Positions 934 through 16,115 of a stretch of 32,455 nucleotides of DNA are shown piece after piece (position 1 is the first letter of the stretch; the number at the start of each line of letters is the position of its first letter). The notes below the pieces were generated by a model that worked only from the letters and a program-made list of their open reading frames with translations, was not told where the DNA came from and made no database searches. The stretch comes from a virus: positions 1 to 32,455 of the IMG/VR virus record IMGVR_UViG_3300032893_000213; one strand, written 5' to 3'. Position numbers and translations under genes: made by a program.

Positions 934-1006
934 TGGTGTCTCCACCAGAATTCGAATCTGGGTCTCTCTATTGCTAGAGCGTGCTAGGCCGCTACACCAT
1001 GGAGAC
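934..1006 (-). tRNA. tRNA-Glu-like RNA without an anticodon (GCAA tetraloop in place of the anticodon loop)
   Basis: The strand-reversed sequence folds as a cloverleaf. Acceptor is GTCTCCA/TGGAGAC (7 of 7 bp), then T8-G9, D stem GTGT/GCAC with the 9-base loop AGCGGCCTA, one base, stem CTCTA/TAGAG (5 bp), variable AGAC, T stem CCAGA/TCTGG with loop TTCGAAT, discriminator A and an encoded CCA. The D arm is almost that of E. coli tRNA-Glu, including U11-A24, U13-G22 and a 4-base variable loop, which are known GluRS identity features. The middle arm has only four loop bases, GCAA (971-974), instead of seven. There is no U33 and no anticodon, so it cannot decode. Every other stem is intact, which argues against simple decay. 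A GluRS-like gene lacking the anticodon-binding domain lies at 3591-4523. Confidence 0.85.
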
Positions 1007-3505: not shown

Positions 3506-3591
3506 TGTGGTCCTCTTTCAAGAAATTCCTTAATGTATATCTTAAAGTTTTTCCAAGGATCGAGAATTTGATCTCCTATATAATAATTCAT
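3502..3591 (-). CDS. 29-residue mini-copy of the small paralog family
   Basis: It reads MNYYIGDQILDPWKNFKIYI followed by KEFLERGPQ. The start resembles the N-terminus of its neighbours (MNTYY/MTKYY) and the end resembles their IKEFLE block, with the whole middle missing. It is therefore probably an internally deleted copy that stays translated: it overlaps the GluRS stop (TAATG) at one end and the next ATG at the other. It may serve only to keep ribosomes moving between the two genes. Confidence 0.5.
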   Translation of the reverse strand: MNYYIGDQILDPWKNFKIYIKEFLERGPQ

Positions 3592-4523
3592 TAGGGTAAT
3601 CTTTTATTAATTTCTTTTTGTCTATTATCTAATTTATCTATATCTAAAGCGCAAGGAGAGTTTTTCAATTTACCTTCAAAAAACCACTCAATTGCTTTTT
3701 GTTTTGGAATAAATTGTGAAAATAATTTATTCATCTCTTTAGCTTCTGGTCCTCTAGGAATATTTAACGACCATCCCATTCTAATTAACCAATCTAACAT
3801 TACTTCAGCAGTATATCCTTTTTCTTTATAATCCATAAGACTAGAAGCCCCGTCTCTTTTAGAGAGTTTCTTATTATTTTGTGTAATTAACCCCAAATGT
3901 GCAAACTTAGGAAATGGTTTAGGACACTGAACATTACCATAAACCTCATTTAAGGCCATCCAGATAGCTAACTGCTTAGGAGTATTAGTAATATGATCAA
4001 CTCCACGAATGATATAATTAATCCCCATAAAATAATCGTCAATAATAGATGCCAATTGGTAAGTTGGTTTTCCCAATAATTCTGGCTTCTCTTGCTGGTA
4101 CCCTCTAAGCAATATTGTTTTACGATCAATCTGCTCTTTATTAGTTTCCGTAATAGCGATATCACCAGCAATATCATCATTAAACAATTTAGGCATACTA
4201 TAAGGATACAATAATGCAACGGCCCCATTGTCTAGCTCCACAGCTTTGTTGTGAAAGAGTAGATTCTTTGCTTCACTGATATAGAGATGTTCACGTTTAC
4301 TTTGATATTCTACTTTATCTGGCTTTAAACCTAACCATTCAAGAGATTGAAATATAATATCTGTATATTCCTTCTTATTTCGTTGTATATCAGTATCATC
4401 AATACGAAGAATGAATGTACCGCCTGAAGATTTAGCTGCTAAGTAGTTGATATAGGCTGTTCTACAAGTTCCGATATGCATCATACCGGTTGGTGAAGGA
4501 GCAATTCTAGTTATATATTTCAT
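3591..4523 (-). CDS. Minimal glutamyl-tRNA synthetase-like enzyme lacking the anticodon-binding domain
   Basis: A 310-residue class I synthetase of the GluRS/GlnRS group. The HIGH-type motif is APSPTGMMHIGT (about 8-19), followed by LRIDDTD; the usual GluRS glutamate of RIEDTD is aspartate here. Next come FNDDIAGDI, the tRNA-side PTYQLASIIDDYFMGINYIIRG and a KMSKS-type KKLSKRDGA (about 225-233). The zinc-binding insert after the first Rossmann half is largely missing. After KMSKS only the stem-contact part follows, ending at about the KLDxxN element, just where the C-terminal anticodon-binding domain of a normal GluRS (about 470 residues) begins. The active site looks intact, so glutamylation of an RNA acceptor is likely. 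The natural partner is probably the anticodon-less tRNA-Glu-like RNA at 934-1006. GluQ-RS is another truncated relative, but its cysteine cluster is absent here. A GGAG site lies in the end of the preceding gene (stop/start TAATG). Confidence 0.85.
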   Translation of the reverse strand: MKYITRIAPSPTGMMHIGTCRTAYINYLAAKSSGGTFILRIDDTDIQRNKKEYTDIIFQSLEWLGLKPDKVEYQSKREHLYISEAKNLLFHNKAVELDNGAVALLYPYSMPKLFNDDIAGDIAITETNKEQIDRKTILLRGYQQEKPELLGKPTYQLASIIDDYFMGINYIIRGVDHITNTPKQLAIWMALNEVYGNVQCPKPFPKFAHLGLITQNNKKLSKRDGASSLMDYKEKGYTAEVMLDWLIRMGWSLNIPRGPEAKEMNKLFSQFIPKQKAIEWFFEGKLKNSPCALDIDKLDNRQKEINKRLP

Positions 4524-10367: not shown

Positions 10368-10564
10368 AATATTCAATTGAAGAATTAGATAAAATGAGAG
10401 AATCTATTGGATGGATATTAAAATGTAAAGGATTTAGTGGTAAACCTATAGATTACTTTAAAACTAAAGAAGAATTATTAAGAACTTATATGATTAATGG
10501 TACTACAGTAGAAGAATTAAAAGCAAAAGAAATAGAAGCATTAAATAAATTAAGAGGCAAATGA
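10364..10564 (+). CDS. Small helical hypothetical protein
   Basis: 66 residues, MKYSIEELDKMRESIGWIL..., with a charged helical C-terminus (TVEELKAKEIEALNKLRGK). The ATGA overlap with the upstream peptidase gene and the overlap with the sulfotransferase start suggest a coupled trio. No family recognised. Confidence 0.5.
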   Translation: MKYSIEELDKMRESIGWILKCKGFSGKPIDYFKTKEELLRTYMINGTTVEELKAKEIEALNKLRGK

Positions 10565-11310
10565 TTAATTTCATTTCTGGTCTACCAAGATCAGGATCAA
10601 CTTTATTAGTAGCAATACTAAAACAAAATCCTAAATTCACAGTTAATATAAGTTCCCCTTTAGCTGATTTATTTATTGCCTGTGATGCAGGCTGCTCTAA
10701 AGAGAGTTCTGTATTTATCAATCAAGAACAAAGATTAGATATTCTTAGAGGATTGTTTAATAGTTATTATAAGAAAACTTCTAATATTATATTTGATACT
10801 CATAGATTCTGGAATTCAAGAATTCATATTTTATCTGAATTATTTCCTGAAGCAAAATTTATATCTTGTGTCAGAGAAGTTGGATGGGTAGCAGATTCTT
10901 TTGAAAAGCTTTATAGAAAAAATAATCAACAAGCATCAGCATTATATGGATGGACTACTGGTGGGAATGTATTCAATAGAACTAGACATTTATTAGAAAA
11001 AGATAATGTTATAGGATTTAGTCTTAATTCTACAATAGAGGCAGTCAATAGTAAACAAATTAAATTAATTGATTATGAGCTTCTATGTAGATTTCCTGAA
11101 GAAGTAATTAGAAGTTTATATGAATATATTGAAGAAGATTATTTTGGACATCACTTTAGTAGTATAGAATATAGCACAGACGAATTTGATTTAAAGCTAG
11201 GTAGTCCTGGATTACATAAAATCCAAGGACCGATTGAGTGGAAACCTAGACAAACTATTTTACCCCTTGAGCTTTTCAATGAAGCTAATCAAGGGAATTT
11301 TTGGAGATAA
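10561..11310 (+). CDS. Phage-encoded sulfotransferase
   Basis: A 249-residue protein with the PAPS-dependent sulfotransferase fold signature: FISGLPRSGSTLL at residues 4-16 is the 5'-phosphosulfate loop. The region CVREVGWVADSFEKLY (about 101-116) corresponds to the 3'-phosphate-binding segment (R, then S eight to ten residues on). It would move sulfate from PAPS to a hydroxyl or amino group. The acceptor may be a surface polysaccharide, lipid or small molecule; nothing here decides. The length is usual for the short bacterial family. As an accessory metabolic gene it may alter host surface or signalling. The ATG overlaps the preceding stop. Confidence 0.75.
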   Translation: MINFISGLPRSGSTLLVAILKQNPKFTVNISSPLADLFIACDAGCSKESSVFINQEQRLDILRGLFNSYYKKTSNIIFDTHRFWNSRIHILSELFPEAKFISCVREVGWVADSFEKLYRKNNQQASALYGWTTGGNVFNRTRHLLEKDNVIGFSLNSTIEAVNSKQIKLIDYELLCRFPEEVIRSLYEYIEEDYFGHHFSSIEYSTDEFDLKLGSPGLHKIQGPIEWKPRQTILPLELFNEANQGNFWR

Positions 11311-13440: not shown

Positions 13441-16115
13441 TGCTGCGCCGTCTTCTCCTTGCGTTCGGGCTGCTATGCGTCCTTGCGACCCCCGCCCTTG
13501 CGACCACGACTTTCACGGCCGGAACTAACTGCCCCGCTGGTTTCAATGTCACAGGAGGCGGACTCACCGTAGCCAGCACGGCGAACGGGTATCAAACCTG
13601 TTTCGCCAACAATCCGAAGTGGTCCGGTCTGAAGTATTTCGAGGTCACATTTGTTACGAACGGCAATCTTTATGTTGGCTTGGCAAACAACGGCAACGGA
13701 TCGCCCTTCGCGGGAGTCCCAAGCGCTAACGGCGGCTGGTCGACTAACACAAACAACTACATAGGGGTCAATTATACTTCCATCAGCTATCTCCACACTG
13801 TAAGCAGCGGCGCGATCTATTGGGGAAACAATGCGCTCAAGACATCAATCGGCACGACATCAGCCAGTCAAGTCGTCGCTATCGCAGCAGACTTCAACAG
13901 CAATCCACCGCAGTTTTGGGTAGCGCCAAACGCTACCAATCTGGTCTGCAATGGCAGCGGCGGGTCTGGCAGCTCCGCTCCGCAATACAACGGGAACTGC
14001 ACCAGTGATCCGAGCATTCCGGGTTCTGGGGCTGGGAACACGGGCGGCACTGGCGTTAATTTCTTTCTACAGGGATTTGCCTATTTTCCTGTGTTCCAAA
14101 CCAATGGCACGGGGCAATCGGCTACCTATAACTTTGGAGGATCAGGCTTCGCTGGGGTGCTGCCAACTGGCTACAGCTCGTGGGATGATAATTCCGACAG
14201 CAGCAGCAACGCACCAAATCCGGGGCCGACGAATGCGGTAAGCCTCAATATTGCAAATGCTCCGGGCTGGGCTGCGAGCACGTCGTATGCCGCCGGGAAG
14301 CGGGTCGTCGCAGGACCGGGTTGGGCGCCAGGTTCTCCAGGTTCCTTTACAAGCGGCTCGGCGCTCTATCTGTGGGCCATTCAAGGGGCTGGCGGCACGT
14401 CGGGCGGAAGCCCGCCTGCCGGCTTCTCTTCCTGCCCGACTCCGGCAGCATATGGCGGCGGATTTACGGGATCGACCCCTTCGCAGTGGTCGGGCGCAAC
14501 GACAGTCAGTGACAATGGCCTGACGTGGGTGTGTTTGACGAAAGTCGATAACGTCACTCTGACGGGGGCATTTTTCGACACGAGCACGGCATGGTCAGCG
14601 GGAGCCACTTTCTACTACGGGCAACGTGTAACCAATACGGCTGGGCAGGTCTTCAAGATGACCGCTGCACGCAGCTCGCCCTTTACTTGCACGACGGGCG
14701 GTTCCGCGCCGTCTTGGGTTACAACCACGCTCTACGTATCTACCACGAGCGACAATACCTGCACCTGGACCTACGTTGCATCGACGCTGGTTTATTCGTC
14801 GCAGACAGGATATTTCCCGCCCCAGGTCAATTACGCTGGGTCTTCCACCTATCCCAATGCCGGGTTCAATTGGCCTCTTACCATAAATGTTTGGTACGGG
14901 GGCTCGGCACAACAGCTTTATCAGCCAGGGCAGAACAACGAGAACATCCCGCTGTTGATGACCGATCACGGCACGTTGACCGATGGCGCCGGCACGATTG
15001 CTGAGTGCAAAAATGCTTATTTTTTCAGTGCCTACGTCCTATTCAGCCCATCAAGCGCGAATGGTGGGTTGAATGCTTGCGCTGGACTGTACTCAGTAAC
15101 TGGGCTAAATTTCACCGTGGCTCCTGGCGACAGTATAGTGGACAATGTTGCAAATCGATTGGGGGTGGACTCGACAAAAGGTGTTGAGATTTACAACAAC
15201 GCGACGCCGACTGGATCGTGGCAATATTACTATACCGAAGGCGAGTCCATCGCGATCGACGACACGGGAATGAACATCTCGCGGTTCCAGTTCGTCTCGA
15301 CGCAGGGGGGATGCCTTACCGGCGGGAAGTTCGGTGGTCCGGGGCTTGGCATCACCAACAACGACAATTTCTTTGACAACATAATGGATTGCGGCGGCAC
15401 CGCGTCTGGAGCGCGTGGTGCTTTTGCGATTGACGCGGGAGGATACGAAGCTAACAATCTAATAATCTATCGGGGCACGCAGGCAGGCAGCTTTGGCACT
15501 TTCTGTTTCTATCCCTGCGCCATCTTCAACAATACTATCGTCGGTAATAGTGCGACTAACGGCACAGCCATTCAGAATGACGCGCCAGCCGCGGGATTTT
15601 GGGCATCAGGGGGCTCATTCTTCCCGGCGCCCTTTAACAACAACGTCTTCATCGGATTTCCGAATTGCTGGGCTGTGAATACGACGAACTGGACATCGGG
15701 TAACATTTCCGCACAGACTGGAGCTAATAACGCCACTGATCGGGCAAGCTGTCCTACAGGCGGAACCTTTACCTCTACAGTAGGCAGGACATACACCCAA
15801 GAACTTCTGCCAGGGATAAGTGGCAGTGGGTGTAACGGGAGTGCCTCGTGCTATGGGTTAACGCCATCGACCGAATTTGTTAACCCGACTATTGGGTCTT
15901 CGGAGAATTTCAAGGTCAAGTCCACTTCGTCGTTGATATACAGCGGAGGAGGCGCTTTTAGCAAATCGACTGGTGGGTCGTGGATGGGAACCTTGGTTCC
16001 TGGGCCAGATATTTTCGGGACTGTACGTCCGGTAAGCGGTCGGTACGACATCGGGGCGGAGATGTTCGTTCCGGCTGCCGCTAACGGTTTGCCGCTGATC
16101 TTCGGGGTGCCGTGA
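12885..16115 (+). mobile_element. GC-rich foreign segment (fibre module swap)
   Basis: Base composition jumps from about one-third GC to well over half within a few codons at about 12885. It drops back just after the stop of the 891-residue gene at 16115. The segment holds the tail of one gene and all of the next. No transposase or repeat marks the ends, so recombination-driven module exchange is likely. Confidence 0.75.
13440..16115 (+). CDS. Large fibre or adhesin-like protein: SPRY-like, carbohydrate-binding-like and beta-helix regions
   Basis: 891 residues beginning with a signal-like MLRRLLLAFGLLCVLATPALA. Residues about 60-130 resemble SPRY domains (LKYFEVTF...NLYVGLANNGN). Around 275-310 and 385-415 are WxAxxxYxxGxxV segments (WAASTSYAAGKRVV, WSAGATFYYGQRV), the look of CBM5/12-type carbohydrate-binding repeats. 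The rest is Asn/Gly/Ser-rich with paired cysteines, like a right-handed beta-helix of a polysaccharide-binding or cleaving tail protein, ending with a YDIGAEMF segment as seen in secreted beta-helix proteins. Strongly GC-rich throughout. The ATG overlaps the previous stop. Domain names are by eye. Confidence 0.6.
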   Translation: MLRRLLLAFGLLCVLATPALATTTFTAGTNCPAGFNVTGGGLTVASTANGYQTCFANNPKWSGLKYFEVTFVTNGNLYVGLANNGNGSPFAGVPSANGGWSTNTNNYIGVNYTSISYLHTVSSGAIYWGNNALKTSIGTTSASQVVAIAADFNSNPPQFWVAPNATNLVCNGSGGSGSSAPQYNGNCTSDPSIPGSGAGNTGGTGVNFFLQGFAYFPVFQTNGTGQSATYNFGGSGFAGVLPTGYSSWDDNSDSSSNAPNPGPTNAVSLNIANAPGWAASTSYAAGKRVVAGPGWAPGSPGSFTSGSALYLWAIQGAGGTSGGSPPAGFSSCPTPAAYGGGFTGSTPSQWSGATTVSDNGLTWVCLTKVDNVTLTGAFFDTSTAWSAGATFYYGQRVTNTAGQVFKMTAARSSPFTCTTGGSAPSWVTTTLYVSTTSDNTCTWTYVASTLVYSSQTGYFPPQVNYAGSSTYPNAGFNWPLTINVWYGGSAQQLYQPGQNNENIPLLMTDHGTLTDGAGTIAECKNAYFFSAYVLFSPSSANGGLNACAGLYSVTGLNFTVAPGDSIVDNVANRLGVDSTKGVEIYNNATPTGSWQYYYTEGESIAIDDTGMNISRFQFVSTQGGCLTGGKFGGPGLGITNNDNFFDNIMDCGGTASGARGAFAIDAGGYEANNLIIYRGTQAGSFGTFCFYPCAIFNNTIVGNSATNGTAIQNDAPAAGFWASGGSFFPAPFNNNVFIGFPNCWAVNTTNWTSGNISAQTGANNATDRASCPTGGTFTSTVGRTYTQELLPGISGSGCNGSASCYGLTPSTEFVNPTIGSSENFKVKSTSSLIYSGGGAFSKSTGGSWMGTLVPGPDIFGTVRPVSGRYDIGAEMFVPAAANGLPLIFGVP

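Follow-up and report, generated by a model that had tools for sequence, protein, structure and literature searches.

Can an RNA with the body of a tRNA-Glu be of use to a phage if it carries no anticodon? This question is raised by a short element in the IMG/VR virus record IMGVR_UViG_3300032893_000213, analysed here over a stretch of 32,455 nucleotides (hereafter the window). The original prediction had centred on the loop at the anticodon position, GCAA, as a GNRA loop. The interesting object is not that loop, however, but an anticodon-less tRNA-Glu together with a GluRS that has no anticodon-binding domains, which sequence comparison and statistics suggest may form a pair.

The RNA at positions 934–1006

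The element and its parts lie on the minus strand:

934..1006 (−): tRNA-Glu-like RNA gene without anticodon, 73 nt including CCA; RF00005 match of 45.1 bits
981..997 (−): D arm GTGT-AGCGGCCTA-GCAC, with U11-A24 and U13.G22 retained
966..979 (−): arm replacing the anticodon arm, CTCTA-GCAA-TAGAG, GCAA loop at 971–974; from sequence and fold
962..965 (−): variable loop AGAC, 4 bases, with A46 present and base 47 absent
934..937 (−): discriminator A73 and encoded CCA end (CCA at 936..934)

Read on the minus strand from 1006 to 934, the sequence is GTCTCCA TG GTGT AGCGGCCTA GCAC G CTCTA GCAA TAGAG AGAC CCAGA TTCGAAT TCTGG TGGAGAC A CCA. Using cmscan with permissive filters on a 701-base region, I obtained a match to RF00005 (tRNA) at 937–1006 (−), with 45.1 bits (E = 2.4e-8; the gathering score is 29 bits). 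The alignment spans model positions 1 to 71 with all arms in register, and its sole collapsed part is the anticodon loop, reduced from 7 to 4 bases. In place of a readable 7-base loop, the RNA has the 4-base GCAA, and therefore has no anticodon. Direct reading of the sequence found no alternative register of the 966–979 arm that restores one: with the stem opened, the loop would read AGCAAU or UAGCAAUA, and neither is a U33-type loop. ARAGORN called no tRNA for the element, and a fast Rfam scan of the whole window missed it. The predicted fold is a cloverleaf of −24.1 kcal/mol, with a z of only −1.9 relative to shuffled sequences, and the case for tRNA identity is therefore made by the covariance-model score rather than by folding energy. 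The clean 5-bp CTCTA/TAGAG arm closed by GCAA, as originally described, is confirmed by the sequence, this score and the encoded CCA.

Apart from its anticodon, tRNA-Glu of E. coli is marked by U11-A24, the U13-G22:A46 triple and a missing base 47 as major determinants, and by G1-C72 and U2-A71 as weak ones (PMC9976931; PMC6523644). The RNA at 934–1006 possesses this full non-anticodon set (G1-C72, U2-A71, U11-A24 and U13.G22..A46, with base 47 absent), but the positions of the anticodon determinants U34, U35, C36 and A37 are missing. It therefore keeps all that a GluRS sees, save the target of the anticodon-binding domains. The identity positions and the cmscan register bear out the earlier view of a tRNA-Glu scaffold that kept its other arms and is unable to decode.

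Could this simply be a tRNA-Glu in decay, a functionless pseudo-tRNA that recently suffered a deletion in its anticodon loop, with the nearby GluRS serving a normal tRNA-Glu, be it in relatives of this phage or in another part of its genome? I consider this rather unlikely. The arms are all perfectly paired and the CCA is encoded. Further, the D stem differs from the common GTCT/GGAC of related tRNA-Glu-like RNAs solely at pair 12-23, G-C instead of C-G, a double change that leaves the pairing and both identity pairs intact. Other evidence on this account, some of it favourable, is described below.

Directly downstream on the same strand, about 16 bases away, positions 768–918 (−) show a multi-branched fold with CTGTGGT/ACCACAG as its closing stem and GTTTTTC after it (z = −1.5, no convincing Rfam match). 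The tRNA-like element might then belong to a longer transcript, where it would serve RNase P or RNase Z as a processing point or lend 3' stability to this 151-nt structured RNA. The closed terminal stem fits such an arrangement, but given the poor z and the lack of a convincing family, and since the glutamate determinants are left unexplained, I regard it as very improbable.

The mini-GluRS gene and its family

The window encodes a second component, unmentioned in the original prediction, which is more telling evidence than the GNRA loop:

3591..4523 (−): mini-GluRS, 310 aa; PF00749 (6e-51), with Rossmann, CP1 and stem-contact regions and the HIG and KLSKR motifs; anticodon-binding domains absent

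This gene is located 2.6 kb from the RNA, on the same strand. Its product corresponds to the catalytic portion of class I GluRS/GlnRS enzymes, and has the HIGH-type and KLSKR motifs of gltX. Its top match is bacterial gltX, at 231.5 bits (under the curated cut-off of 289.95). GluQRS (YadB), the glutamyl-queuosine tRNA-Asp synthetase, is likewise a GluRS catalytic core without an anticodon-binding domain. However, the window protein falls under every GluQRS cut-off (134.9 bits for the curated model, cut-off 276.7) and scores higher against gltX; on these scores a GluQRS activity was rejected. In addition, GluQRS modifies an anticodon base, and the RNA at 934–1006 has none. An AlphaFold2 model generated from an alignment of 27 homologues has a pLDDT of 93 and a pTM of 0.91, and superposes on M. 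tuberculosis GluRS with a Z of 32.6 and on residues 1–323 of Thermus GluRS with a Z of 31.8, compared to 27.0 on GluQRS. In Thermus GluRS, the anticodon-binding domains comprise the residues from about 323 onward; as the match extends only up to residue 323, the protein therefore stops where anticodon recognition starts.

I then gathered homologues from IMG/VR. A first-pass protein scan with the single window sequence as query found no loci, and a two-row alignment, combining it with a 285-aa homologue (37% identity) from the huge phage LR745206, yielded 62 (L-numbers below are labels for the loci compared in this analysis). About 40 of the 62, in 29 lineages including the window, encode enzymes of ∼260–325 aa, and the remainder are mostly full-length. 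The mini enzymes constitute one side of a branch in the tree, with support of 100/99. KLSKR and HIG are nearly invariant in this family, and no variation is seen at the positions matching Arg5, Ser9, Tyr187 and Arg205 of Thermus GluRS. Two mini-GluRS (L068:724-1551 and L070:1475-2257) read MQIG where the HIGH motif has its histidine.

One position of the glutamate pocket separates the two groups. The equivalent of Thermus Glu41, a residue in contact with the glutamate amino group, is D in 27 of 28 mini enzymes and in none of the 19 full-length ones, all of which have E; the loci were fetched without selecting for D, and the lone mini exception is an ORF cut by a contig end. Because of this E-to-D change, glutamate is the likely, though not certain, specificity of the family.

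About a dozen mini-GluRS phages encode an ordinary tRNA-Glu, and mini-GluRS can therefore have ordinary substrates. LR745206 (634 kb) was considered as a second case of the pair and rejected: it possesses a mini-GluRS, but its tRNA-Glu genes are ordinary, and its tRNA clusters contain no anticodon-less Glu-type RNA. The nearest mini-GluRS relative, L044, has no anticodon-less tRNA-Glu-like RNA within 62 kb. Close relatives of the window phage identified through the terminase are fragments no longer than 66 kb and lack a mini-GluRS, and phage GenBank records contain no DNA similar to the window.

Anticodon loss in other viral tRNA-like RNAs

Fetched mini-GluRS loci were searched with a covariance model (R1) and a cloverleaf parser. 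This identified tRNA-Glu-like RNAs without a usable anticodon in 8 of the 29 lineages, the window included, in all eight on the strand of the enzyme and 0.5 to 8.4 kb from its gene:

Window: GCAA loop at the anticodon position
L059: array, with CUUG in one copy and long hairpins in the others
L082: UGCG loop; a second copy has a 45-nt middle region
L081: GCGUA loop
L068: UUUA loop
L047 and L104: 38–41 nt from D arm to T arm; CCA encoded
L071/L078/L089: four to five copies per array, their D loops carrying hairpin inserts

The arrays at L071:15706-16582, L078:13929-14813 and L089:17449-18591 have a common acceptor stem, differing hairpins at the anticodon position and the D-loop inserts. Whole-record searches added a ninth lineage, L049/L054, with a 6-base loop. 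These two phages also share a conserved tRNA-like RNA (L049:9485-9587 and L054:8220-8322) whose D and T arms are 54 nt apart, separated by what may be an intron or a hairpin. ARAGORN missed most anticodon-less tRNA-likes of this class or labelled them tRNA-???, and the class is therefore easily overlooked.

The original prediction had proposed that the GNRA loop is special and a docking element, to be judged by comparing the arm across relatives. In that comparison, pairing is indeed kept while the sequence changes completely, but the GNRA is not: the relatives carry the various loops listed above or long hairpins. A conserved GNRA docking element is rejected on the relatives found. The three-base deletion fared similarly; the loop does fall 3 bases short of the normal length, as was noted, but an exact deletion of this size is not special, as will be seen below.

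No anticodon-less tRNA-Glu-like RNA was found in 87 control loci (1.06 Mb), comprising full-length GluRS loci, terminase relatives and loci picked for anticodon-altered elongator-type tRNAs; the best matches checked all had ordinary loops. The enrichment, 8/29 versus 0/87, corresponds to a Fisher p of 7e-6, to 0.002 after dropping the four rows on which R1 was trained, and to 0.015 relative to full-length GluRS loci alone, values that are indicative since the controls are unmatched for genome size or host.

A few compensatory double changes were observed in the D-insert and anticodon-side hairpins of the L071/L078/L089/L068 arrays. In L071/L078/L089, a U-A pair of the D-insert hairpin became C-G, and two pairs of the consensus predicted in the L068 comparison are altered on both sides. 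In one L078 copy (14246-14342), the D-stem pair 10-25 changed from G-C to A-U, with U11-A24 and U13.G22 unchanged. This covariation points to selection on the arrayed RNAs, but is only suggestive because 3 to 7 sequences are compared.

To place these RNAs in a wider context, I searched IMG/VR for a tRNA-Glu D arm with abnormal spacing to the T loop, which gave 26 short and 109 long candidates (the best 80 of the 109 long are listed). Among the matches listed, some dozens have an altered anticodon arm yet intact acceptor, D and T arms. A mini-GluRS was found in 0 of 38 IMG/VR records with such other anticodon-altered tRNA-Glu-likes, and a full-length GluRS in 1 of 40 comparison records. Anticodon loss therefore does not require the mini-GluRS, and an obligatory partnership of this enzyme with each anticodon-less tRNA-Glu-like RNA is rejected. 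The short Glu pattern gave only 10 raw matches across 84,980 cellular genomes.

A parallel pattern with the common GCTCAG D arm returned at least 120 raw matches in IMG/VR, and 61 of 80 parse as cloverleaves among the matches listed. These elongator-type tRNA-likes (L293-L372) have shortened or missing anticodon arms, and many have odd first bases but perfect acceptor stems. Among the IMG/VR matches listed, the outer pairs of the short arms are kept in 80%, versus 41% with shuffled partners, and GNRA accounts for 2 of 20 elongator-type tetraloops. The smallest deletion permitted by the pattern is the commonest, and frequency falls from there. Anticodon loss is thus recurrent in viral tRNAs, and is therefore not by itself a mark of the mini-GluRS/RNA system.

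These counts favour the decay account: anticodon-shortened tRNA-likes are not rare, the deletion sizes fall off from the smallest allowed, the mini-GluRS is absent from the 38 records, and many mini-GluRS phages keep a normal tRNA-Glu. Against it stand the enrichment beside mini-GluRS genes, and the lengthened hairpins and covarying arrays of the relatives, which go beyond what deletion alone yields.

An uncharged role is another alternative, in which a stable tRNA-shaped RNA binds a host factor (a tRNA nuclease, a modification enzyme, EF-Tu or GluRS) as a decoy, or displays a hairpin as engineered tRNA scaffolds do. The wide variation in length and loop of the anticodon-position arms in relatives is consistent with this, as is the occurrence of such RNAs without any mini-GluRS. 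There are precedents: tRNA-Other, a pseudo-tRNA of Bacillus cereus, has a role outside translation (PMC3399842), and mascRNA is bound by GlnRS in the absence of a conserved anticodon loop and is not aminoacylated (PMC9976931). Both are tRNA-like RNAs outside translation like the one proposed here; no dedicated synthetase has been described for them. A decoy, however, needs neither the full charging determinants, nor a CCA end, nor a dedicated synthetase nearby, and I find this alternative distinctly unlikely.

Possible charging without decoding, and known systems

The explanation I favour, at about even chances, is that the RNA at 934–1006 is a tRNA-Glu that lost its anticodon and is charged by the phage's own mini-GluRS. 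The RNA would have kept its acceptor end, augmented D helix, short variable loop and CCA; the enzyme, without anticodon-reading domains, would most likely recognise the acceptor and D-arm side and charge it, and the 4-base GCAA loop would merely cap a disused stem. The product would be a Glu-tRNA-like RNA incapable of decoding, its glutamate going to a non-ribosomal use unless the charged RNA itself acts as an effector; one or the other would follow from the lack of an anticodon. Transcription, charging and amino acid identity are all inferred here from sequence.

A likely history is that an anticodon-independent mini-GluRS eased the constraint acting on its tRNA, after which some lineages lost or replaced the anticodon, given that about a dozen mini-GluRS phages retain an ordinary tRNA-Glu. 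The altered RNAs are scattered over the mini-GluRS tree, and several changes are needed.

Several points weigh against the pair. The window is a 32-kb fragment, and a normal tRNA-Glu may lie elsewhere in the genome. The 38 records without a mini-GluRS, the mini-GluRS phages with ordinary tRNA-Glu, and L044 without such an RNA count in the same direction, as do the viral anticodon-less tRNA-likes, also common, that have a different type of D arm. No consumer of glutamate was recognised in the window, and the E-to-D pocket change makes the amino acid itself less certain.

It is possible, although I lean against it, that these phages represent a lineage with a codon-free aminoacyl-tRNA system, in which mini-GluRS and anticodon-less RNAs would feed activated glutamate, or a related amino acid, to a non-ribosomal reaction of infection. 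Some phages would then hold several parallel RNAs with different hairpins; the mention of a related amino acid is prompted by the E-to-D pocket change.

A conserved gene pair adjoins the mini-GluRS in five loci (L104:5326-9007, L059:6387-9701, L047:2621-5865, L044:11966-15378 and L082:11551-14529). It encodes a ∼550-aa zinc-finger-like protein of unknown function, that bears SCM and CxxC motifs, together with a metallopeptidase of M28/M42 type in which the probable metal ligands are conserved. This pair was rejected as a glutamate consumer: the window and most records with anticodon-less tRNAs lack the peptidase, and its proximity to mini-GluRS is attributed to a shared phage lineage.

Searches of the literature for phage GluRS and for tRNAs lacking an anticodon turned up no account of such a pair, but related systems are known. 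tmRNA is charged with alanine, lacks a D stem and includes an mRNA part, whereas the RNA of the window stands alone as a 73-nt cloverleaf, its D arm complete and its determinants those for glutamate. What tmRNA offers as a parallel is a tRNA-like RNA that can be charged yet has no anticodon (PMC2481249). In Desulfobacterales, CysRS* is a synthetase without an anticodon-binding domain, dedicated to an unusual tRNA, SelC* (PMC9437257). SelC* retains its anticodon and decodes UGA; the window RNA has no anticodon, is of Glu type and belongs to a phage. PEARL and lantibiotic-dehydratase systems use ordinary tRNAs, and no such ligase was recognised in the window, where unknown proteins of 891, 292 and 302 aa, considered as PEARL-like ligases, read as secreted or structural. 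Such aminoacyl-tRNA-dependent biosynthesis would nevertheless be a precedent for the non-ribosomal use of aminoacyl-tRNA (PMC11962472).

Decoding normally keeps the shape of a tRNA; the pair, if true, would be a natural separation of charging from decoding, and would raise the question of other phage uses for aminoacyl-tRNA. It would also supply small, anticodon-independent GluRS/tRNA pairs.

On the plus strand of the window, positions 10561–11310 encode a sulfotransferase-family protein (PF13469, 1.2e-14), and the phage also has SU10-like portal and adaptor proteins.
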